Shown here: positions 29,892-46,169 of the stretch, piece by piece
How positions within the stretch are numbered: the first letter of the stretch is position 1
Layout: each line of letters opens with the position of its first letter
DNA from: Sinosporangium siamense
Lineage (GTDB): Bacteria; Actinomycetota; Actinomycetes; Streptosporangiales; Streptosporangiaceae
Direction: 5' to 3'
Assembly: GCF_016863435.1 (NCBI RefSeq)
Contig: NZ_BOOW01000054.1
Location: 1-64,000, forward strand
Length of the DNA stretch: 64,000 nt
Program-made: the position numbers and the translations under genes
The notes under the pieces: generated by a model
Told to the model about the DNA's origin: nothing
What the model saw: the letters and a program-made list of their open reading frames with translations, nothing else
Databases searched by the model: none

Positions 29892-29957
29892 CGAAGCCGA
29901 TCAACAGCCACATCGCCTCTGGACGACCCTGCGGGATGGATGTAACCTCGACGCAAA

Positions 29958-29983
29958 GCGCACGTAACGAGCGCATTGCGCAC
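29958..29983 (+). promoter_or_regulatory. Putative IclR operator, site A (CoA-transferase operon)
   Basis: GCGCAC at 29958, seven bases, then GCGCATTGCGCAC at 29971-29983. The same GCGCAC-N7-GCGCAWTRCGCAC arrangement is found at 41864-41889 and 44944-44969. It ends 11 bp before the ATG of the CoA transferase, where binding would block transcription. The iclR gene of the same locus carries one copy, which points to its product as the binder. Confidence 0.65.
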
Positions 29984-29994
29984 AAGAGGTGTAG

Positions 29995-32112
29995 ATGGAA
30001 ACAGCGACTTCCACCGGGTTGCTGGCGGGATGTCTCGTCGTCGAGGTGGGCGAACGGATCGCGGTCGCCGCATGTGGCGGCCTGCTGGCGCAACTCGGCG
30101 CCGACGTCGTCCTCGTCGAGCCGGCGCGGCAGAGGGCGGACCACAAGTGGAGCGACCGGGCCGTGACCGCCGCCGGCAAACGCAGCATCGTGGTCGATCG
30201 AGCCTCGGCCGACGACAGGAAACTGGTTGAGGACCTGGTCAGCGCGGCGGACGTCGTTCTCCTGTCCTCGGATCTGTCGGACGAGGACCGCGCGCTGTGG
30301 GGATCGGCCCGGCCCGGCCGCCAGATTCTCTGTGACATCACGGCGTTCGGCCATGAAGGACCCCTCGCCGGAGTGCCCGGATCGGAGGCATTCGTCGAGG
30401 CTGTCTCGGCCGTTGCCGACACGACGGGACGGCGCGACGCGCTTCCGGTCGTGCTTGGCGCGCCGCTGCTGGAGATGGAGTCCGCGGTGTACGCCGCATC
30501 GGCGGTCGTCGCCGCGCTCCGTGTCCGGCGCCGGCACGGGTTCGGCCAGCGCGTCGACGTCTCCCTCTATGACGTGGCGGTGAACGCCCTGGCCACGTTT
30601 CTCCCGCTGACGTTCATCGGCCGGGTCCCGACCCGCAACGGCAACCGCCATCCGACGCTGTCGCCGTGGAACTCCTATCGGGCCCTCGACGGGTGGGTGC
30701 TGATCTGCGCGCCGACCGACGAGCAGTGGGTGCGGCTGTGTGAGGCCATGGATCGCCCCGAACTGGTGGACGACCTGCGGTTCGCGACGACGAGCGGCCG
30801 GATGGACCACACCGACGAGATCGATGCCGTCGTCGGGGCCTGGACGGCACAGAGATCCGTGGCGGAATGCGTCGGCCTGCTCAGCCGCCATGTGATCCCC
30901 AGCGGTCCCGTGACACCTGTCGGCGGCCTGGCCGGCGAACCGAACCTGCGGCATCGGGGGATGGTGCGTTCCGCGGTCGACTCGGAAACCGGAGAGGCGG
31001 TGCTGCTCCCGGGCTGCCCGGTCCGGTGGCGCGGCACAGAGCCGGTCCCGCAGATTCCGGCCCGTGACGCGGATCGGACCGAGATCGGCGCCCTCATCCC
31101 CAGCCGACCGACAGCCGGCGAGGTCAGCGGCGATCCCGTGTCCGAGGTGCGGCCGCTTGAGGGCATCCGGGTGGTGGAGATCGGCATGAACACCGTCGGC
31201 CCCCTGGCCGGTCGGCAACTCGGCGCGCTCGGTGCCGACGTCATCAAGATCGAGCCGCCGAGAGGAGACGCGAACCGGCACAACGCCCCACTGCGCTCCG
31301 ACGGGCAGTCATACATCTTCGCTCTGCTCAACACCGACAAACGAGGGCTCGTACTCGATCTGCGCCAGGAAACGGACCGGCAGGTGCTCTGGGATGTGCT
31401 CGCCTCCGCCGACGTGCTCATCGAGAATCTCAAGCCGGGTTCGCTGCATCGCCTGGGGTTCGGCCCCGAGCAGGTTCAGGCGGCCCTGCCACATCTCGTC
31501 TACTGCTCGATCAACGGATTCGGCCACGACACCGTATATCCCGGGCGACCGGCTCTGGACACGGTCGTGCAGGCGATGTCCGGAGTGATGAGCGCGACGA
31601 CGGTCGACGGCGTCCCCACGAAGGCGGGCATCTCCGTTTCGGATCAGCTCGGCGGGCTGTTCGGCCTGCTGGGGGTTCTGGCCGCCGTCGAACATCGGGA
31701 GACGCATGGTGGCCCCGCACCTGCCCTCGACCTCGCGATGCAGGACGGATCCGCGTGGGCGACCCATCGGCTGTGGAACGTCAGCCCGGCGGATGCTCGC
31801 ATCGTCGCCGCCGAGGACGGCCTGTGGCTGGACGAGGACGGCACGCGCACGCCGGTGTCGACGGTGAACGACGTCCTCGCACACCCCCAGACCACGGCCC
31901 GGGGGCTCGTGCTCGACCGGCCTGCCGCCGACGGCGGCTCCTGGACCGTTCTCGGCTCACCGATGCGCCTGCTGTCCACTCCTGCCGTGGTCTCCACCGC
32001 CATGCCCCGGCTCGGGGTGCTGGACCCCGCCCTCGCCGCCGAGTTCGGGCTGGTGGCGGCGGAGGACGGCAGGACACTCCGGGCCGCTTCCCTGTCCGGA
32101 AAGGAATCGTGA
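29995..32112 (+). CDS. Tandem-domain CaiB/BaiF family CoA transferase
   Basis: The 705-residue protein consists of two class III CoA-transferase units in tandem (about 1-365 and 375-690), whereas most family members are single units of about 400 residues that pair up as interlocked dimers. The second unit keeps the catalytic Asp in RPALDTVVQAMSG; the first has Glu at the matching place in PGSEAFVEAVSA. It probably activates a carboxylic acid as its CoA thioester using another acyl-CoA as donor. The ATG follows AGAGGTG. It is the first gene of a plus-strand operon and has an IclR-type operator just upstream. Confidence 0.85.
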   Translation: METATSTGLLAGCLVVEVGERIAVAACGGLLAQLGADVVLVEPARQRADHKWSDRAVTAAGKRSIVVDRASADDRKLVEDLVSAADVVLLSSDLSDEDRALWGSARPGRQILCDITAFGHEGPLAGVPGSEAFVEAVSAVADTTGRRDALPVVLGAPLLEMESAVYAASAVVAALRVRRRHGFGQRVDVSLYDVAVNALATFLPLTFIGRVPTRNGNRHPTLSPWNSYRALDGWVLICAPTDEQWVRLCEAMDRPELVDDLRFATTSGRMDHTDEIDAVVGAWTAQRSVAECVGLLSRHVIPSGPVTPVGGLAGEPNLRHRGMVRSAVDSETGEAVLLPGCPVRWRGTEPVPQIPARDADRTEIGALIPSRPTAGEVSGDPVSEVRPLEGIRVVEIGMNTVGPLAGRQLGALGADVIKIEPPRGDANRHNAPLRSDGQSYIFALLNTDKRGLVLDLRQETDRQVLWDVLASADVLIENLKPGSLHRLGFGPEQVQAALPHLVYCSINGFGHDTVYPGRPALDTVVQAMSGVMSATTVDGVPTKAGISVSDQLGGLFGLLGVLAAVEHRETHGGPAPALDLAMQDGSAWATHRLWNVSPADARIVAAEDGLWLDEDGTRTPVSTVNDVLAHPQTTARGLVLDRPAADGGSWTVLGSPMRLLSTPAVVSTAMPRLGVLDPALAAEFGLVAAEDGRTLRAASLSGKES

Positions 32113-32114
32113 TC

Positions 32115-33299
32115 ATGGTTGACCTCGCGCGCCTGTCCGCGTTGCGGGACACCGTCGCAATCGTGGGTGTCGGCGAGACCGACTACCCGGAGGACTACGG
32201 CCGCGCCCGCCGGGGCGAGCGATATCAAGACGCCTACGGCTATGCCGCGACCGCCTTCCGGCGTGCCCTCACGGATTCCGGCCTCGAACGCCGCGACATC
32301 GACGGGCTGGTCGCCGGCCCGGCCCTCGCCGGTGAGCGGCTCGGTGAGGTGCTCGGCATGGACGTGCGGTGGGCGGACCAGGCCGACGCGGTCCAGGCGG
32401 TGGTGAAGGCCGCGCTGGCGGTCCACGCCGGTGTCGCCGAATGCGTCGCCCTGGTTTACGGCAACGACCAGCGCACCGGAGGCACCGCGTACGGCGGGCC
32501 GGGCGCGATGGGCGGTGAACGCCACCTCGCCTACACCTACTACGCCCCATGGGGCCTCACCTCGCAGGGGGCGCTGTACGCGCTCCTCGCCAACCGCTAC
32601 ATGGAGGTCACCGGGCTGACCGAACGCGAACTCGGCGGGGTCGCCGTCGCGCAACGAGCCTTCGCGCGGCTGAACCCCAACGCCGTCATGCGGAAACCGC
32701 TCGACGTCGAGGACTACCTCGCCGGCCGCTACATCTGCGAGCCGCTGCGGTTGTTCGACTACTGCCTGGTCAACGACGGAGGTGTCGCGCTGATCGTCAC
32801 GACCGCCGAACGCGCCCGGCGCTTGCGCCGGCCCGCGGTGCTGCTGAGCGGGATCGGGCGCAGCGACCACAACCGCGAGGCGACGAGCCTGCGTCCGCGC
32901 CTTATGGACTTCTACCGCCCGGCCCAGCGGAACGCGGCCGAGCAGGTCTACGCGATGGCCGGTATGGGGCCGTCCGAGGTGGACGTGTTGCAGGTCTACG
33001 ACAGCTTCAGCATCCACGTCCCCCTCGCGTTGGAAGGGTTCGGCTTCTGCGCGGAGGGATCGGCGGGCAAGTTGTTGTCCTCCGGCGACCTCGGCCCGGG
33101 TGGGCGGCTGCCGGTGAACACCTCCGGCGGTCACCTCTCAGGCAGCTATATGCAGGGCTGGGGGCACCTGGCCGAGTGTGTGCGCCAGCTCCGCGGCGAG
33201 GCCGGCGAGCGCCAGGTTCCCGGTGCCAGGACCACGCAATATATCTCCGACGTCGCCGGCAAGGTCACCTCACTGATCTACCGGAGGGCGCGCGCATGA
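32115..33299 (+). CDS. Thiolase-like (SCP-x/lipid-transfer type) acyltransferase
   Basis: The 394-residue protein belongs to the thiolase-like SCP-x group that works with DUF35 partners, for example in sterol and aromatic side-chain degradation, where members act as thiolases or retro-aldolases. Visible are VAIVGVGETDYPE at the start, DVLQVYDSFSIH and PVNTSGGHLSGSYMQGWGHLAE near the end; the usual C-terminal GHP-type His is in GGHLSG. The expected N-terminal nucleophilic Cys is not evident, which favours an aldolase-type or non-classical reaction. ATG at 32115 follows AAGGA; a GTG at 32109 is possible. The DUF35 gene overlaps its end. Confidence 0.82.
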   Translation: MVDLARLSALRDTVAIVGVGETDYPEDYGRARRGERYQDAYGYAATAFRRALTDSGLERRDIDGLVAGPALAGERLGEVLGMDVRWADQADAVQAVVKAALAVHAGVAECVALVYGNDQRTGGTAYGGPGAMGGERHLAYTYYAPWGLTSQGALYALLANRYMEVTGLTERELGGVAVAQRAFARLNPNAVMRKPLDVEDYLAGRYICEPLRLFDYCLVNDGGVALIVTTAERARRLRRPAVLLSGIGRSDHNREATSLRPRLMDFYRPAQRNAAEQVYAMAGMGPSEVDVLQVYDSFSIHVPLALEGFGFCAEGSAGKLLSSGDLGPGGRLPVNTSGGHLSGSYMQGWGHLAECVRQLRGEAGERQVPGARTTQYISDVAGKVTSLIYRRARA

Positions 33300-33736
33300 C
33301 CACCACGCCTCGTCCCGCGCCGCAGCGCGGGATCTTCGACGAACCCTATTGGCGATATGCCGCCGCGGGCGAGCTGCGCCTGCAGCGGTGCTCGGCGTGC
33401 GGGAGCTTCCGTTACCCGCCCGGACCGGCCTGCCCGGATTGCCTCGCGGAGGAGCACGAATGGACGGCGCTGTCCGGACGGGGATCGCTCCTCGCCTGGA
33501 CCGTGTTCCACCGCCAGTACTTCCCCGGCATTCCGGTGCCCTACGCCGTCGCCGCGGTGCGCACGGCAGAGGGACCGATCCTGATCGGGAACATCGCCGG
33601 AACTGCGGTTGGCGACCTCATCCATGGCATGCCGCTAACCGCCGTCTTCGAGGACGTCACCACCACCGATGGTCCACTGCGCATCTGCCAATGGACCCGC
33701 CTCGGCCCTTCATCAACCCTTGAGGAGCAGGAATGA
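33296..33736 (+). CDS. DUF35 OB-fold protein with rubredoxin-like zinc ribbon
   Basis: The 146-residue protein has the DUF35 architecture: an N-terminal zinc ribbon with two Cys pairs (CSACGSFRYPPGPACPDC) followed by an OB fold (SLLAWTVFHRQYFPGIPVPY, then AEGPILIGNIAG). Such proteins bind acyl-CoA and form complexes with SCP-x-type thiolases or MaoC hydratases. The start overlaps the thiolase-like stop (ATGA), which supports a physical partnership. Confidence 0.9.
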   Translation: MTTTPRPAPQRGIFDEPYWRYAAAGELRLQRCSACGSFRYPPGPACPDCLAEEHEWTALSGRGSLLAWTVFHRQYFPGIPVPYAVAAVRTAEGPILIGNIAGTAVGDLIHGMPLTAVFEDVTTTDGPLRICQWTRLGPSSTLEEQE

Positions 33737-34539
33737 CCCAGACAGATATCGTGCGGGCCGCCGATGTGCCGCGTGGGCGTGACTTCGCCGTCCGCGACCG
33801 CGTTGTCGTCATCACGGGCGGCGGCCAGGGAATCGGCCGCGAATACGCGCGCCAGTTCGCCGCGGCGGGTGCGCTGCCGGTGATCGCCGAGATCAACGAG
33901 GATTCGGCCCGCAACGTGGTCAAGGAAATCGAGGAGGCCGGCGGCAAGGCTCTCGCCGTACGCACCGACGTCGCCGATCCGGCGTCCGTCGACGCGCTTG
34001 TCGGCGCCGTGCTGAACGAATTCGGCCGGGTGGACGCGCTCATCAACAATGCGGCGATCTTCTCCAGCCTGGCCATGCGGCCGTTCGAGCAGATCCCGCT
34101 CGACGAGTGGGACGCGGTGCTGCGGGTCAACGTCACCGGTTCGTTCCTGTGCGCCAGGGCGGTGGCCCCGCACATGCGCGCAGCCGGCTGGGGGCGCATC
34201 GTCAACATCATGTCGGGTGCGGTGCCCCTCGGCGTGCGGAACTACCTGCACTACGTGACGTCCAAAGCCGCGATGGTCGGCATGGCGAACTCGCTGGCCA
34301 GGGAACTCGGCGCGGACGGCATCACGGTCAACGCCGTGCAGCCGGGCGGAACCTTCACCGAGGTGCCGCGCCAGACGGTGACCGCGGAGGGCAAGGCCAA
34401 GCTCATCGGCAACCAGTGCATTCCCCGGGAAGAGGTGCCGATGGACCTCGTCGGCCTCGCCCTGTTCCTTTGCACCCCGGCAGCCGGGTTCATCACCGGT
34501 CAGACCATCGCCTGCGACGGCGGCCTCACCCACACCTGA
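33733..34539 (+). CDS. Short-chain dehydrogenase/reductase
   Basis: The 268-residue classical SDR has the cofactor motif TGGGQGIG (about 29-36), NNAAIF, the catalytic Ser in IMSGAV and the YVTSK pair (Tyr and Lys), with PGGTFTEVP after strand 6. It would oxidise or reduce a hydroxy/keto group of a pathway intermediate, plausibly a 3-hydroxyacyl-CoA or ring alcohol. The start overlaps the DUF35 stop (ATGA), so it belongs to the same coupled operon. Confidence 0.92.
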   Translation: MTQTDIVRAADVPRGRDFAVRDRVVVITGGGQGIGREYARQFAAAGALPVIAEINEDSARNVVKEIEEAGGKALAVRTDVADPASVDALVGAVLNEFGRVDALINNAAIFSSLAMRPFEQIPLDEWDAVLRVNVTGSFLCARAVAPHMRAAGWGRIVNIMSGAVPLGVRNYLHYVTSKAAMVGMANSLARELGADGITVNAVQPGGTFTEVPRQTVTAEGKAKLIGNQCIPREEVPMDLVGLALFLCTPAAGFITGQTIACDGGLTHT

Positions 34540-34563
34540 TCCACCCCCCGCAAGGAGAATCCA

Positions 34564-36039
34564 GTGAAGCCATCAAACGGATCACCTCAGTTCGACCTAT
34601 GGCTGGACGGCTCGGCCCGCCCCGCCGCCTCAGGCGCGAGCTTCGCGCGGCACAGCCCGTTCGACGGCGCTCCGGCCGGGGTCTTCGCGGACGGCGGCGA
34701 GCAGGACGCCGAGCGAGCCGTCGACATCGCGCGCCGTGAGTTCGACACCGGAACCTGGCCGACCAGTCCGGCGCGCCGGCGCTACGAGGTCCTCACCGAG
34801 ACGGCCAGGCTGCTGACGGTCAATGCCGACGCGCTCGCCGAGCGCATGGTGCTGGAGTCGGGCAAGCCGGTCACACTCGCCCTGGGCGAGGTGGCGGCCT
34901 CCGTTCGCTGCCTGCAGTACTACGCCGGACTCGCCCTGTCCGCGGAGGGATCGGCCGTCAGCGAGCGGAACCCGAGCGCACTCGGCCTCATCCTGCGGGA
35001 GCCGGTCGGGGTCGCCGCGCTCATCACCGCGTGGAACTTCCCGCTGCTCGGTGTGGTGTGCAAGCTCGCGCCCGCCCTCGCCGCGGGCTGCACCGTCGTC
35101 GCCAAGCCCTCCCATCTCTGCCCGGGACCGACGGTGCTGCTGGCCCGATATCTCAGTGAGGCCGGGCTGCCCGGCGGCGTCTTCAACGTGGTCACCTCCG
35201 AGTTGGAGCAGGGCGCGGTGGTGGGCCAGCACTTCGCCTCCTCGCCGAAGGTCGACAAGGTCGCCTTCACCGGGTCCACCGCCAGCGGCCAGGCCGTGAT
35301 GCGGGCCGCGGCGGCGAACACCAAGCGGGTGGCGCTCGAACTCGGCGGGAAGTCGGCCAACATCGTGTTCCCCGACGCGCCGCTTGAGGACGCCGCGCGC
35401 ACCGCGATCGGCGCCTTCACCTTCAACAGCGGCCAGCAGTGCTCGGCGGGCAGCAGGCTGCTTGTGCACTGCGACGTCCACGACGAATTCACAGCGATGC
35501 TGAAGGAATACGCGGCCGCGCAAGTGCTGGGCGATCCCCGTGAGACGACGACCACGATGGGCCCGCTCATCAGCAGCCGGCAGTACGAGCGGGTGCTCGG
35601 CTACATCGATCTCGGACGTGCCGAGGCGAAGCTGCTCACGGGTGGCGGCAGGCCGGCCGACCCGGCGCTGGAGCGCGGCTACTTCGTCGAGCCGACCGTT
35701 TTCGACGAGGTGAGCAACTCCTCCAGGCTGGCGCAGGAAGAGATCTTCGGTCCGGTGCTCTCGGTGATCTCGTTCGGGACCGAGGAGGAGGCCGTCGCGT
35801 TGGCGAACGACAGCGCCTACGGCCTGGCGGGCGGCGTGTGGACCGGATCGATGGACACCGCTTTGCGGGTGGTCAAGGGCGTGCGGACCGGCAAGATGTT
35901 CGTCAACTGCTACAACACCGCAGGCATCGACGACATGCCGCACGGCGGCTACAAGAACAGCGGCACCGGCCGCGAGTTCGGCGAAGTCGGTCTCGAAGAG
36001 TTCCAGGAACTCAAGACCGTGCAGATCCTGCTGCGGTAA
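34564..36039 (+). CDS. Aldehyde dehydrogenase
   Basis: The 491-residue protein is a full-length ALDH. The oxyanion Asn is in TAWNFPLLG, the Glu in ALELGGKSANIVF and the nucleophilic Cys in NSGQQCSAGSRLLV; FGEVGLEEFQELKTVQ is the usual C-terminal dimer arm. GTG at 34564 follows AAGGAG. It is in the CoA-transferase operon and likely oxidises an aldehyde precursor to the acid that is then CoA-activated. The specific aldehyde cannot be read from sequence. Confidence 0.92.
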   Translation: MKPSNGSPQFDLWLDGSARPAASGASFARHSPFDGAPAGVFADGGEQDAERAVDIARREFDTGTWPTSPARRRYEVLTETARLLTVNADALAERMVLESGKPVTLALGEVAASVRCLQYYAGLALSAEGSAVSERNPSALGLILREPVGVAALITAWNFPLLGVVCKLAPALAAGCTVVAKPSHLCPGPTVLLARYLSEAGLPGGVFNVVTSELEQGAVVGQHFASSPKVDKVAFTGSTASGQAVMRAAAANTKRVALELGGKSANIVFPDAPLEDAARTAIGAFTFNSGQQCSAGSRLLVHCDVHDEFTAMLKEYAAAQVLGDPRETTTTMGPLISSRQYERVLGYIDLGRAEAKLLTGGGRPADPALERGYFVEPTVFDEVSNSSRLAQEEIFGPVLSVISFGTEEEAVALANDSAYGLAGGVWTGSMDTALRVVKGVRTGKMFVNCYNTAGIDDMPHGGYKNSGTGREFGEVGLEEFQELKTVQILLR

Positions 36040-36053
36040 GGGCGGTAGCACGC

Positions 36054-37568
36054 ATGAACATCGCAGAGTGGCTCGCCGCGACCGCGCGCCGGCAGCCGCA
36101 CGCGCCGGCCCTGCTCACCGGCGACCGGACGGTTTCCGACTATGCCGGTTTCGCAGCCTCCGCGGCGTCGATCGCCGGTCACCTCGCTGAGCGGCACGGC
36201 GTCAGGCCGGGCGATCGAGTGGCAATCCACCTCGTCAACAGCGCCCGTTACCTTGAGTGTCTTTTCGGCATCTGGTGGTGCGGCGCGATCGCCGTGCCCG
36301 TCAACCGGAAGCTCGCTCCCGGGGAGGTCGTCACGATCGTCACGGACGCCGGGGCATCGGTCGTGTTCACCGACGACGACTCTCCTCCCGACGTTCCGGG
36401 CGTGGCGTTCCTGCCCGTCGCGGGTGACCGGCCTGGGCACTCCGGGCCGGGCCCGGCGGCGCCGGTCGAGCGGGAACCAGGCGATGTGGCCTGGCTGTTC
36501 TACACCTCGGGCACCACGGGGCGCCCCAAGGGCGTCATGCTCACCCACGCCAACCTGATCGCGATGTCGCTGTGTCATCTCGCCGACGTCGATGCCGTCG
36601 GACCGGACGAGGCGGTGCTCTATGCGGCCCCGATCTCACACGGCGCCGGTCTGTACGGCCTCGCCCACGTGCGCGCGGGTTCCCGGCACGTGTTTCCGGA
36701 GAGCGGCCGGTTCGATCCGGGCGAGGTGCTTGTCCTCGCCCGCACGGTGGGGCGGGTATCCATGTTCGCCGCCCCCACCATGGTCCGCCGTCTCGTATCC
36801 GCCGCCCGATCGAAGGGCGAGGACGGGGCGGGGCTGAAGACCGTGATCTACGGCGGCGGCCCGATGTACCTCGCCGACATCCAGGAAGCGATCTCGGTTC
36901 TCGGGCAGCGTTTCGTGCAGATCTACGGTCAGGGCGAGTCGCCCATGACCATCACCTCGTTGTCCCGGCAGGACCACGCCGACACCGGGCTTCCGCAGTA
37001 CGAGCACCGGCTGGCCGGTGTCGGCACCGCTCAGAGCGTGGTGCAAGTGCGGGTGTGCGCCCCGGGCGGCAGCCCGCTCCCGCCGGGACAGACCGGGGAG
37101 ATCGAGGTCAAGGGCTTGACGGTCATGGCGGGGTATTGGCGTAACCCGGAAGCGACGGCGGACGCCCTGCGTGACGGCTGGCTGCGCACCGGGGACCTCG
37201 GGCATCTGGACGAGGACGGTTATCTCACGCTGGCCGGCCGGTCCAAAGAAGTGATCATTTCCGGCGGCTCCAACATCTATCCGCGCGAGGTCGAGGACGT
37301 CCTCATCGCGCACCCCGCCGTCGCGGAGGCCGCGGTGATCGGAGTGCCGGACCGCGAATGGGGGGAACTGGTCGTCGCGTTCGTCGTTCCCGCGGAGGGC
37401 ACCGGCCTCGACCAGGTGGCCGTGGACCGGCACTGCCGCGAGCTGATCGCCCGGTTCAAGCGCCCCCGCCGCTACCACGTCGTATCCGAACTGCCGAAGA
37501 ACGCCTACGGCAAGGTCCTCAAGACCGAGCTGCGCGCGGCGACCACCGAGCCCCTGGAGGGGATATGA
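36054..37568 (+). CDS. Acyl-CoA synthetase (AMP-forming, ANL superfamily)
   Basis: The 504-residue protein has the ANL motifs in order: YTSGTTGRPKGVMLTH (AMP-binding P-loop), YGQGESPMT, GYWRNPEATADAL, LRTGDLGHLDEDGYL (Asp that binds ribose), and the C-terminal catalytic Lys in PKNAYGKVLK. It makes an acyl-CoA from a carboxylic acid, ATP and CoA. The neighbouring BadI-like hydrolase suggests a cyclic or aromatic carboxylate, though fatty acids are also possible. It lies 14 bp after the aldehyde dehydrogenase gene and overlaps the next start (ATGA). Confidence 0.9.
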   Translation: MNIAEWLAATARRQPHAPALLTGDRTVSDYAGFAASAASIAGHLAERHGVRPGDRVAIHLVNSARYLECLFGIWWCGAIAVPVNRKLAPGEVVTIVTDAGASVVFTDDDSPPDVPGVAFLPVAGDRPGHSGPGPAAPVEREPGDVAWLFYTSGTTGRPKGVMLTHANLIAMSLCHLADVDAVGPDEAVLYAAPISHGAGLYGLAHVRAGSRHVFPESGRFDPGEVLVLARTVGRVSMFAAPTMVRRLVSAARSKGEDGAGLKTVIYGGGPMYLADIQEAISVLGQRFVQIYGQGESPMTITSLSRQDHADTGLPQYEHRLAGVGTAQSVVQVRVCAPGGSPLPPGQTGEIEVKGLTVMAGYWRNPEATADALRDGWLRTGDLGHLDEDGYLTLAGRSKEVIISGGSNIYPREVEDVLIAHPAVAEAAVIGVPDREWGELVVAFVVPAEGTGLDQVAVDRHCRELIARFKRPRRYHVVSELPKNAYGKVLKTELRAATTEPLEGI

Positions 37569-38362
37569 CCGAGCACAGCTATCAGGACATCACCTACGAG
37601 GAGAAAGACCACGTCGCGACGATCACGTTCAATCGTCCGGACAGGCTCAACGCCTTCCGCGGACGCACCTACGCGGAGGTCGCCGATGCGGTGCTCCGCG
37701 CCGGGTGGAACCGGGACATCGGTGCCATCGTGCTCACCGGGGCCGGTGGCCGGGCGTTCGCGGTGGGCGGTGACTCGTCGGAGAAGAAGTCCGATCGGGT
37801 GGGCGACGGCCGCGGGATGCTGGGCATCCCCGTGGAGGAGATGCAGACCGCCATCCGCGACGTGCCCAAGCCGGTGATCGCGAAGGTGCGCGGTTATGCG
37901 ATCGGCAGCGGCAACGTCATCGTGACCCTGTGCGACCTGGCGATCGCGAGCGAGAACGCGGTGTTCGGGCAGGCCGGTCCCAAGGTGGGCTCGGTCGATC
38001 CCGGCTTCGGCACCGCGTTGCTCGCCAGGGTCGTCGGGGAGAAGAAGGCGCGTGAGTTCTGGTTCCTGTGCCGGAAATATCCGGCACAGGAGGCGCTGGC
38101 GATGGGCCTGATCAATCAGGTGGTCCCGGACGACCAACTGGACGAGGAGGTCGACCGGTGGTGCCGGGAGATCAACGACCTCAGTCCCACCGCCCTCGCG
38201 ATCGCCAAGCGGTCGTTCAACGCCGACAGCGAGAGCATCCGGGGCTCCGGGCTGCTCGCCTTCCAGGCGCTCGCCCTGTATTTCGGCACCGCGGAGTCCA
38301 AGGAAGGCGGCGACGCGTGGCGTGCCAAGCGTAAACCGGACTTCCGCGGGGTCATGCCGTGA
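37565..38362 (+). CDS. BadI-like 2-ketocyclohexanecarboxyl-CoA hydrolase (MenB/crotonase family)
   Basis: The 265-residue crotonase-fold protein is closest, by my reading, to BadI of Rhodopseudomonas, which opens the ring of 2-ketocyclohexanecarboxyl-CoA to pimelyl-CoA. Matching stretches include RPDRLNAFRG, MQTAIRDVPKPVIAKVRGYA, GPKVGSVDPGFGTALLARVV, VGEKKAREFWFLC and SPTALAIAKRSFN. MenB (dihydroxynaphthoyl-CoA synthase) is a close relative, but there are no menaquinone genes here. In the operon it could carry out hydrolytic ring cleavage of a cyclic beta-keto acyl-CoA. The start overlaps the ligase stop. Confidence 0.82.
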   Translation: MTEHSYQDITYEEKDHVATITFNRPDRLNAFRGRTYAEVADAVLRAGWNRDIGAIVLTGAGGRAFAVGGDSSEKKSDRVGDGRGMLGIPVEEMQTAIRDVPKPVIAKVRGYAIGSGNVIVTLCDLAIASENAVFGQAGPKVGSVDPGFGTALLARVVGEKKAREFWFLCRKYPAQEALAMGLINQVVPDDQLDEEVDRWCREINDLSPTALAIAKRSFNADSESIRGSGLLAFQALALYFGTAESKEGGDAWRAKRKPDFRGVMP

Positions 38363-39459
38363 TCGAGGTCTCGCTGTCCCGCCCCCCTGCCTCGCGGGCG
38401 ACGGCGGGCGTCGCGTTCCTCGACGACGATCACGTCCTGCGCGTCGTCCGGCTGTTGCTCACCGCGCGCACGGACGCCGACTGGGCGGATGTGACCGAGT
38501 TCTTCGCGCCGGACAGGGTGGATCCGGCGGCACTGCGAGGCATGCGCACCGGCCTGGAATCCGCCGACGGCGTAGCGGCGGTGCGCTCCCCGGCCCAGGC
38601 GACGGTGCTCGTGCTGCGCCGCGGCGAGGTGACCCGCCACCTGATCGAGTCGAGTCCGCGGCTGCGGCTCGTGCAGCGGCTCGGGCGGCGCCGCGACGGG
38701 ATCGATCTCGCCGCCGCGCGCGAACACGGCGTCGAGGTGTCCTGCCTTGCCCGGCCGAGTCTGGTGTGTACGGCGGAGCACGCGATTCTGCTGATGCTCG
38801 CCCTGGTCAAGCGCCTCCCGGTGGCCGACCGAGCGGTCCGCGCCGGTGTGGCCCGTCCGGGAACGCCGGGCGGAGTCGCCTTCAACTGGGCCGGCCTCAC
38901 CGGACTCGGCCGTCTCGCCGGACGGACGCTGGGCATCGTCGGACTGGGTGAAGTGGGCGGCCTCGTCGCCGAGCGGGCGCGGGCCTTCGGCATGCGGGTG
39001 CTCTATTCCAACCCCGTCCGTCTGCCGCCGAGCCGCGAGGCCGAGGCGGGCGTCGAGTATCGCGGGCTTGCCGGGCTGCTCGCCGAAGCGGACGTGGTGA
39101 GCCTGCACGCCCCGGGCACGACCGCCAGGCAACCGGTCCTCGGCCGGGCGGAGATCGCCGTGATGCGGCCGGGCGCACTGCTCGTCAACACCAGCCGCGG
39201 CCGGCTGATCGATGAGGACGCCCTCTACGAGGCCCTGGTGGAGGGACGGCTCGGCGGAGCGGGACTCGACGTGCACCACGTGGAACCGCGTCCCGCCCGG
39301 GACAGGTTCTGCGCCCTCGACAACGTCGTGCTGACCCCGCACATCGCCGGAGGTTCCCGGCTTGACGTGCTCGAAGAGGCCGCCCTGATGTTCGACAACA
39401 TCCGGCACGCCCTCGCCGGGGAGGCTCCGCCGTACGGACGCGTGGTGGGTGCGGGATGA
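38359..39459 (+). CDS. D-isomer-specific 2-hydroxyacid dehydrogenase family protein
   Basis: The 366-residue protein has the NAD-binding motif GIVGLGEVGGLVAERA and the catalytic set: Arg in NTSRGRLIDEDAL, Glu in HHVEPRPA and His in TPHIAGGS. The substrate-binding N-terminal half is unusually Arg/Ala-rich and diverges from phosphoglycerate dehydrogenases. GTG at 38359 overlaps the BadI-like stop (GTGA). It could interconvert a 2-hydroxy and a 2-keto acid arising downstream of ring cleavage; this is inference. Confidence 0.85.
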   Translation: MIEVSLSRPPASRATAGVAFLDDDHVLRVVRLLLTARTDADWADVTEFFAPDRVDPAALRGMRTGLESADGVAAVRSPAQATVLVLRRGEVTRHLIESSPRLRLVQRLGRRRDGIDLAAAREHGVEVSCLARPSLVCTAEHAILLMLALVKRLPVADRAVRAGVARPGTPGGVAFNWAGLTGLGRLAGRTLGIVGLGEVGGLVAERARAFGMRVLYSNPVRLPPSREAEAGVEYRGLAGLLAEADVVSLHAPGTTARQPVLGRAEIAVMRPGALLVNTSRGRLIDEDALYEALVEGRLGGAGLDVHHVEPRPARDRFCALDNVVLTPHIAGGSRLDVLEEAALMFDNIRHALAGEAPPYGRVVGAG

Positions 39460-40751
39460 CGACCCACCGGACCGCGCCGCGTGCCGTCGCGCTCGCGGAC
39501 CTCGACTTCACGCGGATCGTCCGGCCGGGCGACACCGTACTGTGGACCCAGGGGGTGGGCGAGCCGCTGCCCCTCATGGAACGGCTGCTCGCACAGCGGC
39601 ATGATATCGGCCGGTTCTCGGTCCTGTACGGCGGTGCGGGCTTCGCCGAGGTCGTGCGCCCTGAGCACGCCGATGTGATCTCCTTCCAGACACTCGGCGC
39701 GGTCGGCTCGAACCGGGCTCTCACCGCGGCAGGCGTCGCCGACATCCTGCCCTGCCATCTCTCCGACCTGCCACGGCTGATCGCCGGCGGAGTGCTCCGG
39801 GTCGACGTGGTGATCGCGCAGCTCAGCGAGAACGATCGGGGGGAGCTCAGCTACGGACCGGCGGGCGGCTATGTCGCCACCACGATCCCCACCGCGCGGA
39901 CGGTGGTCGCCGAGATCAACGACCAGGCGCCGTGGACTCACTCCCGCCACCCCGTGGACGCCCGCCGGATCGACATCGCCGTCCGTACGTCGCGCCCCCT
40001 GGTCGAGGTGAAGTCACGGCCTGCGTCGGCGATCGACGAGGCCATCGCCGCCAACGTTGTGGACCTGGTCCCGGACGGGGCGACCGTACAGCTCGGAATC
40101 GGCTCGGTGCCGAACGCGGTCACCGGTCTGCTCACGGGCAGGCGTGATCTCGGCCTGCACAGCGGCGTGATCGGGGACGCCGTGGTCGACCTCATCCGCT
40201 CCGGCGCGGTCACCAACGCCGCCAAGCCCGTGGACAGGGGTGTGAGCGTGACCGGTGGGCTGATAGGCACCGGCCGGCTGTTCGACTTCGCACACGGTAA
40301 CGACCAGGTGCGGGTGGAACCGGTCACCTACACTCACGACCTGGACATTCTCCGCAGGCTGCCTCGCTTGACCGCGATCAACTCGGCCTTGGAGGTGGAC
40401 CTGACCGGGCAGGTGGCCGCGGAGGTGGCGGGCTCCGCCTACGTAGGCACGATCGGCGGGCAGGTGGACTTCGCCCGGGGCGCATTCGCCTCGGCGGGCG
40501 GCAGGTCGATCATCGCCTTGCCGTCGCGCACCGCGTCGTCCGGCCGGCCGCGGATCGTGCCGCGCATCGCCTCCGGCGTGGTCACCACGGCACGTGCCGA
40601 CGCGGACGTGATCATCACTGAATACGGCAAGGCCGAGCTACGCGGCCGGCCGATCGCGGAGCGGGTGCGCCGCATGATCGCGATCGCGCACCCGGAGGAT
40701 CGGGAGTCCCTGGACCGGCAGGCACGTGATCACGTCGCCGGATATCGATAG
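39456..40751 (+). CDS. Acetyl-CoA hydrolase/4-hydroxybutyrate CoA-transferase family protein
   Basis: The 431-residue protein belongs to the class I CoA-transferase family that includes acetyl-CoA hydrolase, succinyl-CoA:acetate and 4-hydroxybutyrate CoA-transferases. Typical stretches are VQLGIGSVPNAV, LGLHSGVIGDAVVDL, GTIGGQVDFARGA and IITEYGKAELRGRPIAERV. A catalytic Glu is expected near SALEVDLTGQV. It would move CoA between acids of the pathway and complements the class III transferase at the head of the operon. The start overlaps the dehydrogenase stop (ATGA). Confidence 0.88.
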   Translation: MTTHRTAPRAVALADLDFTRIVRPGDTVLWTQGVGEPLPLMERLLAQRHDIGRFSVLYGGAGFAEVVRPEHADVISFQTLGAVGSNRALTAAGVADILPCHLSDLPRLIAGGVLRVDVVIAQLSENDRGELSYGPAGGYVATTIPTARTVVAEINDQAPWTHSRHPVDARRIDIAVRTSRPLVEVKSRPASAIDEAIAANVVDLVPDGATVQLGIGSVPNAVTGLLTGRRDLGLHSGVIGDAVVDLIRSGAVTNAAKPVDRGVSVTGGLIGTGRLFDFAHGNDQVRVEPVTYTHDLDILRRLPRLTAINSALEVDLTGQVAAEVAGSAYVGTIGGQVDFARGAFASAGGRSIIALPSRTASSGRPRIVPRIASGVVTTARADADVIITEYGKAELRGRPIAERVRRMIAIAHPEDRESLDRQARDHVAGYR

Positions 40752-40761
40752 GAGAGTTTTC

Positions 40762-41862
40762 ATGAGTAAACACGCACTGGGTGTCGCAGTGGTCGGCGCC
40801 GGCGCCGACCACTGGAGCGGCACCGCGCACATTCCCGCCATCGCGGCCTCAGCCGACCTGCGGCTGTGCCGCCTGGTGACCTCGAATCCGGATTCGGCTG
40901 CCGCCGCCGCGCAGCGATGGGGGATAGACGCCACGCACGAGCTGAACGCGGTCCTGGACGACGACACTGTGGACATCGTGTCCGTGACGGTCCGTGTGCC
41001 TCGGCACGCGGCGATCGTCGAGGCGGCGATCGCCGCGGGCAAACACGTCTACTGCGAATGGCCACTGGCCCGTGACGTGGCGGAGGCCAAGAGGCTCGCC
41101 GCGCTGTCGGAGGGCAGGCCCGACCGGGTTCATCTGACCGGCTTGCAGGGACGCTTCTCGCCGCAGGTGCGCACGGCGGCGGAACTGCTGGCGGCCGGCC
41201 GCATCGGCAGGCCGCTGACGGCCAACCTGCGGTTGTTCCTGCCCCACGGGCTGATGGCGCGGCCGGCGCATCGCGCGCATCTTCGCCACAGCGACGTCGC
41301 CGCGAACGTACTGAGCATCCAGGGAGGCCACACCCTCGACATGCTGGGCGTGATCCTGGGCCCGGCCCGGGTGGGTGCCGCCCGCCTGTGGGCCGCCGTG
41401 CCGGAGTTCCTGACGGACACAGGAGAGCGGCTGCCACGAGACGCGCCGGACAATCTTGTGGTCCTGCTCGACTACGACGGGGTCGTCGCCGTCACCCAGT
41501 TCTCCCAGACCGGCCCCAGCGAGTCGTTCGAACTGGAGATCCTCGGCACCGAGGGCCTGCTGCGCCTGGCGGGAAGCTGCCAGCCCCAGCTCGGCGGGCT
41601 GACGCTCAGCGTGACCCCGCCCGGGTCTGGCACGGCCGAGACGGTGGAGCCGCGTCCGGGGCTGCCCTACGCATCGCCGCTGCCCGCGGAGCATCCAGGA
41701 CACAACGTGGCCTCGGCTTATGCCGCGCTGGCCGCAGCCGTCCGCAAGGAGCGCGCAGACGTTGCCCTGCCGGATTTTCGGGCCGCTGTGAACCTCCACG
41801 AATTCCTGGCCGATATCAGCACACAGGCCGTTGACAGCGTTGTAAGCCCGTACTCATACTAG
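40762..41862 (+). CDS. Gfo/Idh/MocA-family oxidoreductase
   Basis: The 366-residue protein has an N-terminal Rossmann motif (VAVVGAGADHWSGTAH) and the family lysine region GKHVYCEWPLARDVAEA; here CEWP replaces the usual CEKP, so the conserved catalytic Lys is Trp. GGHTLDMLG supplies the His/Asp pair. The altered residue may indicate a different chemistry or redox-inactive role. ATG at 40762 follows AGGAGAG, ten bases after the CoA transferase. It is the last gene of the operon before an IclR-type operator and the ABC importer. Confidence 0.82.
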   Translation: MSKHALGVAVVGAGADHWSGTAHIPAIAASADLRLCRLVTSNPDSAAAAAQRWGIDATHELNAVLDDDTVDIVSVTVRVPRHAAIVEAAIAAGKHVYCEWPLARDVAEAKRLAALSEGRPDRVHLTGLQGRFSPQVRTAAELLAAGRIGRPLTANLRLFLPHGLMARPAHRAHLRHSDVAANVLSIQGGHTLDMLGVILGPARVGAARLWAAVPEFLTDTGERLPRDAPDNLVVLLDYDGVVAVTQFSQTGPSESFELEILGTEGLLRLAGSCQPQLGGLTLSVTPPGSGTAETVEPRPGLPYASPLPAEHPGHNVASAYAALAAAVRKERADVALPDFRAAVNLHEFLADISTQAVDSVVSPYSY

Positions 41863-41863
41863 A

Positions 41864-41889
41864 GCGCACACGTTACGCGCAATGCGCAC
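41864..41889 (+). promoter_or_regulatory. Putative IclR operator, site B (ABC importer)
   Basis: GCGCAC at 41864, seven bases, GCGCAATGCGCAC at 41877-41889, in the 80-bp space before the ABC ATPase gene. The spacing is identical to sites A and C; the inner core is the reverse complement form (AAT instead of ATT). Confidence 0.65.
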
Positions 41890-41942
41890 AGCGTGGGATA
41901 GAAACTCCCCTAGCGTGCCGAACATAGACGCAGGTGGTACGT

Positions 41943-42734
41943 ATGACCCCGATCCTGGAATTTCGGGACCTGTCCAAGGTTTTTTTCAAAGGCGAGCAGC
42001 GGGTTCATGCCCTGGCTCACGTTACGGCCGAGGTGGAGGAAGGTGAGCTGCTCGCGATCGTCGGTCCGAGCGGTTGCGGTAAGTCGACGCTGCTCAACCT
42101 CAGTGCCGGGCTCATGGAACCCGGCACCGGGGAGGTGCTCTACCGGGGTCAGCCACTCACCCGCGTCAACACGCAGGTCAGCTATGTCACACAGAAGGAC
42201 AACCTCCTGCCGTGGCGGATTGTCGAGGACAACGTCGCGCTTCCGCTGGAACTCGGCGCACACGCGAAGTTGTCGAAGGACGACCGTCGCGAGCGCATCG
42301 CCCGCTACATCGAACTGGTCGGGCTGACCGGATTCGAAAAGCACTACCCGAGCGAGCTGTCCGGCGGCATGCGCAAGCGGGCGCAACTCGCCCGGTCGCT
42401 CGTCTACGAACCTGACGTCCTGCTGATGGACGAACCGTTCGGCGCGCTCGACGCCCAGCTCAAGCTCGTCCTCCAGGCGGAGCTGCTGCGGATGTGGGAG
42501 GGAACCGGCAAGACGCTCGTGTTCGTCACCCACGATCTCGCCGAGGCCATCACGATCGCCGACCGCGTGATCGTGATGTCGTCCCGGCCGGGCCGCATCC
42601 GGGCCATCGAGCACATCGACCTTCCCCGGCCACGCGATGTCTTCGGCATCCGCTTCGTCCCCGGCTTCGGGGACTACTTCGAGCGACTGTGGTCCGCACT
42701 CAGGGAGGACATCCATCAGGGACAGGAGGTTTGA
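41943..42734 (+). CDS. ABC transporter ATPase, TauB/SsuB type
   Basis: The 263-residue ATPase has Walker A GPSGCGKST, Q-loop VTQKDNLLPW, signature LSGGMRKR and Walker B LLMDEPFGALD followed by THD (switch His). It falls in the nitrate/sulfonate/taurine family, whose members also import aromatic acids and thiamine precursors. ATG at 41943 is preceded by AGGTGG; an upstream GTG overlaps that site. It energises the permease encoded three bases downstream. Confidence 0.93.
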   Translation: MTPILEFRDLSKVFFKGEQRVHALAHVTAEVEEGELLAIVGPSGCGKSTLLNLSAGLMEPGTGEVLYRGQPLTRVNTQVSYVTQKDNLLPWRIVEDNVALPLELGAHAKLSKDDRRERIARYIELVGLTGFEKHYPSELSGGMRKRAQLARSLVYEPDVLLMDEPFGALDAQLKLVLQAELLRMWEGTGKTLVFVTHDLAEAITIADRVIVMSSRPGRIRAIEHIDLPRPRDVFGIRFVPGFGDYFERLWSALREDIHQGQEV

Positions 42735-42737
42735 GCG

Positions 42738-43589
42738 ATGGCCGAAACAGTAGCAAGTCAGGCAGGCGTCGAGTCGCGACCGCCGATCGACGAGGTCTTC
42801 CTCGTCGATCCCAGCGTCAGGGCCCGGCGCCGGCAGACGGTCATCGTGGCCGTCGCCCGCATCGCCCTGGCCGTTGCGGGCCTGCTGGCCTGGGAGCTGG
42901 CCAGCGACCGGTTGATCTCCAGCTTCTGGATCAGCAGCCCGAGTGCGATCTGGTCGGCGCTGCTGCGCTTCACCGCCGACGGCCAGCTGGTGCCCGCGGT
43001 GTGGGTGACACTGCTGGAGACGGCGGCCGGTTTCGCCGCCGGAGGCGCCGCGGGCATCCTCGTCGGCCTGGCCTTCGGGATCAGCCCGATCATCGCCCGC
43101 ATCCTCGACCCCTACCTCGTCGCTCTGAACTCCATCCCCCGGGTCGCCCTGATCCCGCTGTTCATCCTGTGGTTCGGCATCGGGTTCGAAACGAAGGTGC
43201 TCTTCGCGGCGACCCTGGTCTTCTTCCCGGTCTTCTTGAACACCTTCGCCGGTGCTCGCGACGTCGACCGCGACCTGATCGACGTGATCAGGGTGATGGG
43301 CGCCTCGCGGCTCGACGTGATCCGGCGGGTGTTCGTTCCCTCCGCGCTGGTGTGGGTGTTCGCCGGCCTTCGAATGTCCATTCCGTTCGCACTCATCGGT
43401 GCGGTGATCGCCGAGATGTTCACCTCCAACGAGGGCCTCGGCTATCTGATCGCGGTCACCGCCAACCAATACGACACCGCCGGATCCTTCGCCAGCCTGC
43501 TGGTCACGACCGTGCTCGGGCTTGTCCTCACCTGGGGCGTGAGCCAGGCGGAGCGGCGAACTCTCCGGTGGCGCTCGAACAACGCTTGA
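42738..43589 (+). CDS. ABC transporter permease, TauC/SsuC type
   Basis: The 283-residue protein has about six membrane segments and the binding-protein-dependent permease EAA-like loop: VIRVMGASRLDVIRRVFVPSAL. The N-terminal 35 residues are cytosolic. It starts four bases after the ATPase gene ends. It forms the inner-membrane channel with that ATPase and the lipoprotein encoded next. Confidence 0.93.
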   Translation: MAETVASQAGVESRPPIDEVFLVDPSVRARRRQTVIVAVARIALAVAGLLAWELASDRLISSFWISSPSAIWSALLRFTADGQLVPAVWVTLLETAAGFAAGGAAGILVGLAFGISPIIARILDPYLVALNSIPRVALIPLFILWFGIGFETKVLFAATLVFFPVFLNTFAGARDVDRDLIDVIRVMGASRLDVIRRVFVPSALVWVFAGLRMSIPFALIGAVIAEMFTSNEGLGYLIAVTANQYDTAGSFASLLVTTVLGLVLTWGVSQAERRTLRWRSNNA

Positions 43590-43660
43590 TCAAAAACCGG
43601 TTGGCCATCAGGGGGCGGTCACCCGAAATTCTTCATCGCCAGAGTAAGGAACGGTCCACA

Positions 43661-44779
43661 ATGACGTCCCCCCTCACGAACTCTTCCGCCACCCAGCTGT
43701 CCCGTCGCCGGCTGCTCCGCTGGGCTGCGGCAGCGGCCACCGTACCGGTGTTGTCCGCATGCGGCGCGCCGGCTCCCGGCGCGGCCGGAAAGAAGTCCGG
43801 CACAGTCAAGCTGATCCACGCGTCCAAGGACCCGCTCGTCCTGTGGTCGGTGACCTACCTGGCCGAGGACAAGGGCTTCTACAAGGAGGAGGGCCTCACC
43901 GTTGAGCGGATCCTCCTCGGCGGAGGGCCGGCGGCGCTTACCGGCCTGCTGTCCGGAGCGGGCCACGCCAACCTGTCCGCTCCCGGAGAACTGCTGGCCG
44001 CCGTGGGCAAAGGGCAGCGGCTCAAGACGCTGCTCGCGCACACCAACAGCATGCCGTCCATGCTCGTCGTCAGTAAGAAATTCGCCGATCGGGCCGGGGT
44101 CACCGCGGAAAGCTCCCTCGAAGAACGCAGAACGGCCATCGGCAAGGTCAAAGGGGGCCGGTTCGGCATCACCGCCCCGGGCAGCCTGACCGACGGCTTC
44201 ACCCGGCTCGCCGCGAAGCAGGCGGGTCTTGATCCGGCGAAGGACGCGAAGATCGTGCCGTTGCAGACCGCAGGCAACTCGCTGGCGGCACTGGCCAACG
44301 ACCAGATCGACGGCTTCGTCGGAGTGCCTCCTGTGGCGGAGAAGGCGGTGCTTGAGCTCGGCGCCGTCCCCCTTCTCATCAACCAGGAAGGTGAGATCAG
44401 CGGGGGCGACCGCATGCAGGGCATGTCCTTGCAGGCCCGCACTCAGGACGTGGACGCGAACCCGGACCTTTACCAGGCCATAATGCGGGCCGAGATCCGG
44501 GGGATGCGCGCACTCGTCGAGGATCCCGCGGGCGCCGGCGCTCTGCTTCGTAAAACGAGGTTCAGCCAGCTCGAAGAGCCGATCTGGAACTACGCGTGGA
44601 AGCTGATCCAGAGCTCCTGGGGCTCTCCGCACGTCACACGCGACTCACTCACCGCGTGGTTCGACAACGGCCTCGTGGCGGACACGAACGCCACGGGATT
44701 CCCGTTCGACGAGGTGGTCGACATGCGATTCGCCGACGCCGCGCTGAGTGCGATCGGCTGGAAGCCCGCCAAGAGGTGA
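43661..44779 (+). CDS. NMT1/TauA-like substrate-binding lipoprotein
   Basis: The 372-residue protein has a twin-arginine-like signal (LSRRRLLRWAAAAATVPVLSAC) with a lipobox LSAC, so it is probably exported folded and lipid-anchored at the Cys near residue 34. The mature part resembles NMT1/THI5-like and TauA/SsuA binding proteins (YLAEDKGFYKEEGL, GSLTDGFTRLAAKQAG). ATG at 43661 follows AAGGA. With the two preceding genes it forms an importer, likely for an organic acid that the IclR-linked operon degrades. Confidence 0.9.
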   Translation: MTSPLTNSSATQLSRRRLLRWAAAAATVPVLSACGAPAPGAAGKKSGTVKLIHASKDPLVLWSVTYLAEDKGFYKEEGLTVERILLGGGPAALTGLLSGAGHANLSAPGELLAAVGKGQRLKTLLAHTNSMPSMLVVSKKFADRAGVTAESSLEERRTAIGKVKGGRFGITAPGSLTDGFTRLAAKQAGLDPAKDAKIVPLQTAGNSLAALANDQIDGFVGVPPVAEKAVLELGAVPLLINQEGEISGGDRMQGMSLQARTQDVDANPDLYQAIMRAEIRGMRALVEDPAGAGALLRKTRFSQLEEPIWNYAWKLIQSSWGSPHVTRDSLTAWFDNGLVADTNATGFPFDEVVDMRFADAALSAIGWKPAKR

Positions 44780-44940
44780 GCCGCGCAGACCTTCCGGGAC
44801 GCCGTACGGCATAAGCCGGGCGAGAGCGTCGGCCTGGTCGGCGAGTCGGGCTCGGGCAAGAGCACGCCGGCCCGCTGCCTGCTCGGCTTGATGGCCGCGC
44901 CGGGCGTCTCGGCCGGTGACGTCGGGCTCCCGCGCGACAA
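44780..44940 (+). pseudogene. Relic of an oligopeptide-type ABC ATPase
   Basis: Directly after the binding-protein stop, and in the same phase, the sequence reads FRDAVRHKPGESVGLVGESG, then SGKSTPARCLLGL and APGVSAGDV. This is the N-terminal Walker A region of a DppD/OppD-type ATPase. There is no start codon, and similarity stops after about 50 residues where the iclR promoter begins. It marks an old rearrangement junction. Confidence 0.6.
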
Positions 44941-44943
44941 TTG

Positions 44944-44969
44944 GCGCACAAAAGTTGCGCATTACGCAC
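44944..44969 (+). promoter_or_regulatory. Putative IclR operator, site C (iclR promoter)
   Basis: GCGCAC at 44944, seven bases, GCGCATTACGCAC at 44957-44969. A good -10 box, TATTCT, follows at 44981-44986, so the site covers the -35 region of iclR, as expected for autorepression. Confidence 0.65.
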
Positions 44970-45016
44970 GCAAAATGCACTATTCTGGACTGGGTGCGCT
45001 AACTTGAGGAGGGGTA

Positions 45017-45796
45017 GTGGCGGCAGCGGGCAGGACCGAGGGCAGTGCCGAAGAGCAGGTGTCCCGGCGGTCGGTGGTGCAATCTGTGACCCGCGCCTTC
45101 GACGTGCTTCACCTGCTGCGTGACACCAGTTCGCCCCTGTCCGTGCAAGAGATCGCCCGCGGCACCGGCCTGGACCGCACGGTGGTCCACCGGCTCCTGC
45201 GTTCGCTGCTCCAGGCGGACATGGTGATGGAGGAACGCGGCCTGTTCCGGGTCGGGCCGGCCTCTGTCCTGCTGGCGAACCGCTACCACGACGATCTGCT
45301 GGTGCGGCGTCTGGCCTTGCCGTACATGGTGGAGTTGCAGGCCGGGGAGATCGCCGACAAACCGTGGACGGCGACCCTGTCCATCGCGGTCGGCAATGTC
45401 TCCGCGGTCATCGAGCGAATCTGGACCCCTCACACGCCGCTAGACCTCGTGCTCGCCGTGGGCGACACGTTCCCGATTCACAGCACCGCGAGTGGGCGGA
45501 GCATGTTGGCGTACTACGAGCCGGAGAAACTCGTGGACGTCGTCGGCCCTGAGCTGAGCAGTGAATTGGCTCCGATATTGGAGAGCGCGCGAGCCTCCGG
45601 CGGCATCGGCCTGTCGAGAGGCGAAGCGGTGCCTGGAGTGGAGGCGATCTCCGCCGTCATCCTGTCCCGACGGCAGGCCCCGGTCGCGTCCATCAGTGTC
45701 TCCGGGGTCGACCTTGGAGATCAGATGGACCAGGCTTCCCCGCTGGCTTCAACACTGCGTCGTGCGGCGGGTGCCATCGGGCAGATGATTCCCTGA
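45017..45796 (+). CDS. IclR-family transcriptional regulator
   Basis: The 259-residue protein has the IclR layout: an N-terminal winged helix (VQSVTRAFDVLHLLRDT, SVQEIARGTGLDRTVVHRLLRSL, about 24-75) and a C-terminal effector domain with FPIHSTASGRSMLAY and the AISAVILS strand. GTG at 45017 is preceded by GAGGAGGGG. It closes the catabolic/import locus. Three copies of one motif, including one in its own promoter, are its likely targets. IclR proteins usually respond to a pathway substrate or intermediate. Confidence 0.92.
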   Translation: MAAAGRTEGSAEEQVSRRSVVQSVTRAFDVLHLLRDTSSPLSVQEIARGTGLDRTVVHRLLRSLLQADMVMEERGLFRVGPASVLLANRYHDDLLVRRLALPYMVELQAGEIADKPWTATLSIAVGNVSAVIERIWTPHTPLDLVLAVGDTFPIHSTASGRSMLAYYEPEKLVDVVGPELSSELAPILESARASGGIGLSRGEAVPGVEAISAVILSRRQAPVASISVSGVDLGDQMDQASPLASTLRRAAGAIGQMIP

Positions 45797-46151: not shown

Positions 46152-46169
46152 GATGCTATCGTTTGCATC
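46152..46169. promoter_or_regulatory. Putative LacI operator L1 (lacI start)
   Basis: The dyad GATGC at 46152-46156 and GCATC at 46165-46169 is centred on CG, as in LacI-family operators; its core TGCTATCGTTTGCA matches sites L2-L4. It ends right before the lacI ATG, so the regulator probably represses itself. Confidence 0.6.

Follow-up and report, generated by a model that had tools for sequence, protein, structure and literature searches.

Three operators of a probable IclR-family regulon in a rare catabolic-import locus of Sinosporangium siamense

When one sequence is repeated ahead of several transcription units of a single locus, the question is which protein reads it, and how. A 64,000-nucleotide stretch of Sinosporangium siamense (contig NZ_BOOW01000054.1, positions 1 to 64,000; hereafter the window) raises this question, as the 26-mer GCGCAC-N7-GCGCAWTRCGCAC is found there in three exact copies, all on the + strand: operator 1 (29958-29983), operator 2 (41864-41889) and operator 3 (44944-44969). 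The original prediction, that these copies are identically spaced and that each lies ahead of one transcription unit, is confirmed: the first precedes a ten-gene coenzyme A (CoA)-transferase run, the second three ATP-binding cassette (ABC) importer genes and the third iclR. Each copy begins with a box GCGCAC (box 1; 29958-29963, 41864-41869 and 44944-44949) and ends with a 15-bp IclR-type palindrome (29969-29983, 41875-41889 and 44955-44969, centred on 29976, 41882 and 44962). The gene iclR (45017-45796, + strand) encodes a 259-aa regulator, the predicted binder of the three operators, which belongs to the IclR family by both of its Pfam domains, HTH_IclR (PF09339, 50.1 bits, cut-off 22) and IclR_C (PF01614, 50.4 bits, cut-off 24). 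Judged from sequence, the three sites are very probably operators of this protein, because they are conserved, co-occur with the regulator, face an invariant recognition helix and have a form published for IclR proteins. The regulator would control the ten-gene CoA-thioester catabolic operon together with the importer genes and iclR itself.

Within the S. siamense genome, exact copies of the 26-mer are restricted to this locus. Scanning the whole genome (8,855,038 bases) returned the three copies in the catabolic-import locus, no match with one or two mismatches and 20 with three, and the motif read backwards as a control gave 16 matches at up to three mismatches. In shuffled versions of the window, matches at up to three mismatches averaged 0.32, and three matches were reached in none of 100 shuffles. 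Many unrelated matches would have spoken against an IclR regulon, but no other genome match is better than three mismatches. With one or two mismatches allowed, the genome-wide scan revealed no further regulon members. Of the four genomic copies of the 13-base core GCGCAWTRCGCAC (two in the control), three belong to the operators and one lies inside a 604-aa reading frame on the + strand of L081, whose product we take to resemble methylmalonyl-CoA mutase.

Both the regulator and its locus are scarce. An IclR orthologue (E <= 1e-60) was found in 3 of 341 genomes of the family (own genome counted), in 2 of 392 sampled genomes of the genus that includes Streptomyces albipurpureus (S. albipurpureus itself counted), in 1 of 62 of the genus that includes Pseudonocardia thermophila (P. 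thermophila itself) and in 1 of 394 from an even sample of the class (own genome). A contig scan for IclR, which finds close relatives only, yielded four loci, in Sphaerimonospora mesophila and Acrocarpospora corrugata (two of the three family genomes), S. albipurpureus and P. thermophila. These four named relatives, the window and G461 from the Streptomyces set make up the six genomes compared below. The orthologues of the five relatives are 74-86% identical to the regulator, and the recognition helix DRTVVHRLLRSLL, assigned by homology, is invariant in all six proteins. The fused CoA-transferase of operon 1 (E <= 1e-120) was detected in 3 of 338 family genomes, the same three as IclR, and the order of thirteen enzyme and transport genes plus iclR is identical in all five relatives. 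As far as these genome samples go, the 14-gene catabolic-import locus is rare and syntenic. A plasmid collection searched for IclR at E <= 1e-40 gave no match.

Conservation of the sites, which the original prediction had made a check on the regulon, extends to all 18 promoters (six genomes, three each): nine carry the 26-mer without mismatch, three with one, four with two and two with three mismatches. Equivalents of operators 1 and 2 have 0-1 and 0-2 mismatches, respectively, in 6/6 genomes, and those of operator 3 have 0-2 in 4/6. Mean pairwise column identity is 0.91-0.95 at the fixed motif positions, 0.34-0.57 in the N7 spacer and 0.29-0.44 in the 60-base flanks (five genomes, one of the Streptomyces clade omitted; four for iclR, with both of that clade omitted). 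Operator 3 is intact in the window although the upstream flank of iclR holds a fragment of another gene. Of 338 family genomes, 11 contain any match at up to one mismatch, the three locus carriers having three each and the eight others one each. Across the whole genomes of the four named relatives, all eight matches at up to one mismatch fall in the locus (3, 3, 1 and 1), and five lie outside it at two mismatches. Around a distant IclR homologue in G037 (36%), no 26-mer match at up to five mismatches was present in the surrounding 3.0 kb. P. thermophila has an extra palindrome, GTGCGCATTGCGCAC (G367:C26:410443-410468; L059 ~1444-1469), ~117 bp upstream of the palindrome at operon 1 and after an MFS transporter gene, which could be an auxiliary operator.

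How the regulator would sit on these sites depends on how the boxes are grouped. The original prediction considered three half-sites unusual for IclR proteins; this cannot be upheld, as three-box operators are published for PcaU, PobR and HmgR, PcaU requires the third box for binding, and, in a family-wide survey, three-box sites are predicted in 32/181 orthologous groups (Suvorova and Gelfand, PMC8222616). The operator layout is thus already known for the IclR family. The palindrome follows the group-1 form GKTYCRYW3-4RYGRAMC, reading GTGCGCAWTGCGCAC, with a strong right half and variable outer bases in the left half; it deviates by G/C for Y/R beside T/A and, in two operon 1 sites, by C for the central W. 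Two features were missing from the original prediction, a fourth box (29951-29955) and the 20-bp distance between like-oriented boxes, GCGCAC of box 1 and RCGCAC of the palindrome's right half. At 18/18 promoters (the two Streptomyces-clade iclR sites being read in the best-matching register), box 1 has at most one mismatch and precedes the right half, which shares its orientation, by 20 bp; a palindrome with an external box oriented like one of its halves is the layout of PcaU-type three-box operators.

At operon 1, the fourth box, ACGCA, and box 1 form a degenerate upstream palindrome, CGACGCAAAGCGCAC (29949-29963, + strand, centre 29956), and CGCA is retained in 6/6 genomes. At this offset of -20, the palindrome score is 11-12/15 in 6/6 genomes, 6 points of which come from box 1 itself, and scores of 11-12 occur at 0.02-0.1% of background positions; the upstream left half alone scores 5-6/9 (background >=6 at 2.3% and >=5 at 9.7% of positions). 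In the iclR promoters of the two Streptomyces-clade genomes, three palindromes succeed one another every 20 bp (scores 12, 11, 12 and 12, 13, 10). The number of intact halves differs within the regulon, operon 1 having four boxes and the majority of importer and iclR promoters three. Each operator can be read as a 15-bp palindrome of the GTGCGCAWTGCGCAC type with at least one half of a second palindrome 20 bp, or two helical turns, upstream, an arrangement that would suit a pair of IclR dimers (one tetramer) bound to one face of the DNA. Tandem IclR sites with centres 18-22 nt apart are reported for 94 groups (Suvorova and Gelfand, PMC8222616). Because box number varies within one regulon, half-lost tandem sites are tentatively favoured: it is quite possible, if somewhat short of an even chance, that the third box is the remaining half of another palindrome at a distance of exactly two turns and not an alternative partner for the middle box. 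This grouping has to contend with the absence of the upstream left half at the other four iclR promoters (2-3/9) and at 5/6 importer promoters (2-4/9).

Suvorova and Gelfand explain three boxes by alternative dimers (PMC8222616), and the boxes could accordingly represent two alternative arrangements, a group-1 site from boxes 2-3 and a group-2 site from boxes 1-2. Box direction alternates, operon 1 has an inverted repeat GCGCAC-N5-GTGCGY in four genomes, and an offset of -9 scores 9-11/15 there, nearly equal to -20 (11-12), and on average outranks -20 at the importer. An offset of +11 scores 12 in the window's iclR promoter. However, the inner spacing of 5 bp exceeds the 3-4 bp of the group-2 consensus as we read it (PMC8222616), and the fourth box kept at operon 1 in every genome and the exact 20-bp steps of two iclR promoters are what tandem sites would predict. 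Two alternative dimers are a rather improbable account of the boxes.

The promoters bear on the direction of control. That of operon 1 (29920-29948, + strand) was read by eye as TGGACG (29920-29925), 17 bp and TAACCT (29943-29948), and recurs in 6/6 genomes as T(G/A)GA(C/A)(G/T), 17-18 bp and TAAYCT or TATCGT, with the 26-mer 9 bp downstream (by eye); a sigma-70 consensus scan of 29700-45100 does not list its hexamers. The importer promoter (41831-41860, + strand), TTGACA-N18-CATACT, lies within the end of the Gfo/Idh gene and is the sole sigma-70-like match in 29700-45100 (15.4 kb; 0.8 expected from shuffling). In 6/6 genomes it has TTGACA, 17-18 bp and CATACT or GATACT, and the 26-mer follows 3-12 bp downstream (by eye). 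For iclR, operator 3 stands ahead of TATTCT (44981-44986). The original prediction placed this operator over the -35 region, which is correct as to position, since the place of a -35 element with a 17-bp spacer (44958-44963) falls inside operator 3, but no consensus -35 can be read there by eye. In the four genomes where it is readable, the iclR operator lies 5-12 bp upstream of a TATTCT-like -10.

Because operators 1 and 2 follow the -10 boxes and would cover the likely start point, the regulator is most likely a ligand-relieved repressor, comparable to PheR, an IclR repressor with a footprint from -21 to +23 (PMC13273656). At operons 1 and 2, with the operator beginning 3-12 bp past the -10, bound IclR would most likely prevent transcription from starting, and at the third site it would limit its own expression; the position of the operator upstream of the -10 of iclR fits such autorepression. 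A pathway substrate or CoA-thioester intermediate would release the protein.

The same regulator might instead act mainly as an effector-dependent activator, like PcaU and PobR, which are activators. An iclR promoter with no good -35 would agree with this. Activation is nevertheless unlikely here, given that in all six genomes the operators of operons 1 and 2 lie downstream of the -10, where transcription probably starts, and that the importer promoter has its TTGACA in each of them.

Several points weigh against a regulon of this form and sign. Both activators and dual regulators are known among IclR proteins (PMC8222616), so that repression at the locus is likely rather than certain, and the distance between operator and -10 varies, over 3-12 bp at the importer and 5-12 bp at iclR. 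The rearranged iclR promoters of the two Streptomyces-clade genomes match the 26-mer only at three mismatches, and the six locus-bearing genomes are not independent samples. The eight single matches in family genomes that do not carry the locus exceed the backwards control, which gave two matches in the 338 genomes, and one of them, in G222 (L064 ~1501-1526), is exact; it overlaps frames of 232-337 aa and is probably due to chance. The surroundings of the eight, compared with the locus genes at E < 1e-15, contain nothing except a 28% LacI match in one. Each of the eight coincides at least in part with a reading frame of >=120 aa on some strand, an observation that carries little weight in GC-rich DNA.

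It is very improbable that the sites are bound by another factor, such as the LacI-type regulator at 46143-47210 or an unlinked regulator. The lacI gene lies directly downstream of iclR in the window, and motif scans by themselves cannot identify the binding protein. Yet lacI is absent beside iclR in the relatives, which still keep the sites: in the stretches searched downstream of iclR (10, 10, 10 and 6 kb in L028-L031, ~1 kb in L077), the sole match at E < 1e-15 has 29% identity and lies ~6 kb away in L029. Moreover, in form the motif is an odd-length IclR group-1 site, and triple sites occur in the family sample only alongside this IclR. The LacI neighbour was accordingly rejected as an unlikely binder, with no homologue beside iclR in relatives. 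Chance repetition can be dismissed, for although GCGC words are common in a window of ~69% G+C, the shuffles, the empty one- and two-mismatch classes of the genome scan, and conservation across genera despite diverged flanks reject it.

Several characterized IclR systems resemble this one, with differences in each case. Like the sites of PcaU, PobR and HmgR (PMC8222616), it combines an odd palindrome with an external direct repeat of the half-site; it differs in its half-site (GTGCGC, against GTTCGA for PcaU), in its pathway and in its apparent repressor positions. The motif of TphR, the terephthalate regulator of Comamonas sp. E6, is TTTTTGCGCATAGCGCAAAAA (PMC8222616, Table 1), with a core, TGCGCATAGCGCA, nearly identical to that of the locus, and one P. 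thermophila site reads GCGCATAGCGCAC; the TphR motif is flanked by A-tracts, whereas C/G is found at the locus. No ring-hydroxylating terephthalate genes are among the families found in the locus genes. CatR of Rhodococcus erythropolis (GTACGCAGAGCGTAC) and PcaR of Corynebacterium glutamicum (GTTCGC-N3-GCGAAC) likewise have motifs that closely resemble the palindrome of the locus and share the 6-3-6 palindrome geometry of group 1 of Suvorova and Gelfand, but they serve catechol and protocatechuate pathways, and Table 1 of that paper gives them no third box (PMC8222616). In PheR of Sphingobium sp. SHPJ-2, one IclR protein likewise governs uptake and catabolism, and its 44-bp footprint spans the start point, while its core element is GCAACG and its substrate phenanthrene (PMC13273656). 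The NCBIfam model for the PcaR/PcaU/PobR subfamily (TIGR02431) is the best one for the regulator, yet at 64.2 bits is far below its cut-off of 284.75. In a literature search whose coverage excluded most subscription journals, no title was recognised as describing this locus.

The gene content of the locus, assigned with Pfam and NCBIfam, is that of an import and degradation system. Operon 1 (29995-41862, + strand) comprises ten closely packed genes, whose spacing points to a single transcript. The first five encode a fused double type III CoA-transferase, an SCP2-thiolase-like protein, a DUF35/OB-fold protein, and SDR and ALDH enzymes; the remainder specify an acyl-CoA ligase, a BadI/MenB-like crotonase, a 2-hydroxyacid dehydrogenase, an acetyl-CoA hydrolase/transferase and a Gfo/Idh oxidoreductase. 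The crotonase scores 393.2 bits with the NCBIfam model of BadI (2-ketocyclohexanecarboxyl-CoA hydrolase), under the cut-off of 467.6, and by these scores it is BadI-like only, BadI and MenB being the nearest named families, both below cut-off. A NitT/TauT-type ABC importer follows (41943-44779, + strand), with an ATPase (41943-42734), a permease (42738-43589) and an NMT1-like binding protein (to 44779). The BadI/MenB-like crotonase, the SCP2-thiolase/DUF35 pair and the TauT-like importer suggest that a ring or branched carboxylic acid is taken up and broken down through CoA thioesters.

A few further features were noted in and around the locus. A divergent serine/threonine kinase gene with WD40-like repeats (27705-29891), starting 67 bp from operator 1, has no homologue at E < 1e-15 in the 1-5 kb searched ahead of operon 1 in the relatives and is therefore probably outside the regulon. 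The gap between the acetyl-CoA transferase and Gfo/Idh genes is only 10 bp in the window (40751-40762) and ~0.8 kb longer in 5/5 relatives; in L028 (4999-5760), the extra segment encodes a 253-aa metallo-beta-lactamase-fold protein, lactonase-like below cut-off, which is absent from the window. The stretch between the binding-protein gene and operator 3 (44783-44941) holds what is left of a peptide-type (DppD-like) ABC ATPase, 53 codons that include a Walker A motif; Acrocarpospora and Pseudonocardia have almost no gap at this place. The CoA-transferase match of A. corrugata (L057; G365:C109:25443-27554) is reported with one internal TGA.

Taken together, the sites give this rare 14-gene locus, with its conserved gene order, a confident regulon, an operator and a likely mode of control. 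With regulon and operator defined, the inducer of the regulator could be used to find the substrate of the locus. The variation in box number within a single regulon also offers a clean test of whether one dimer binds in two ways or two dimers bind side by side. If the third box is indeed the surviving half of a second palindrome, the 'three-box' and 'tandem' classes of IclR operators would be one tetramer-binding layout at different stages of loss.

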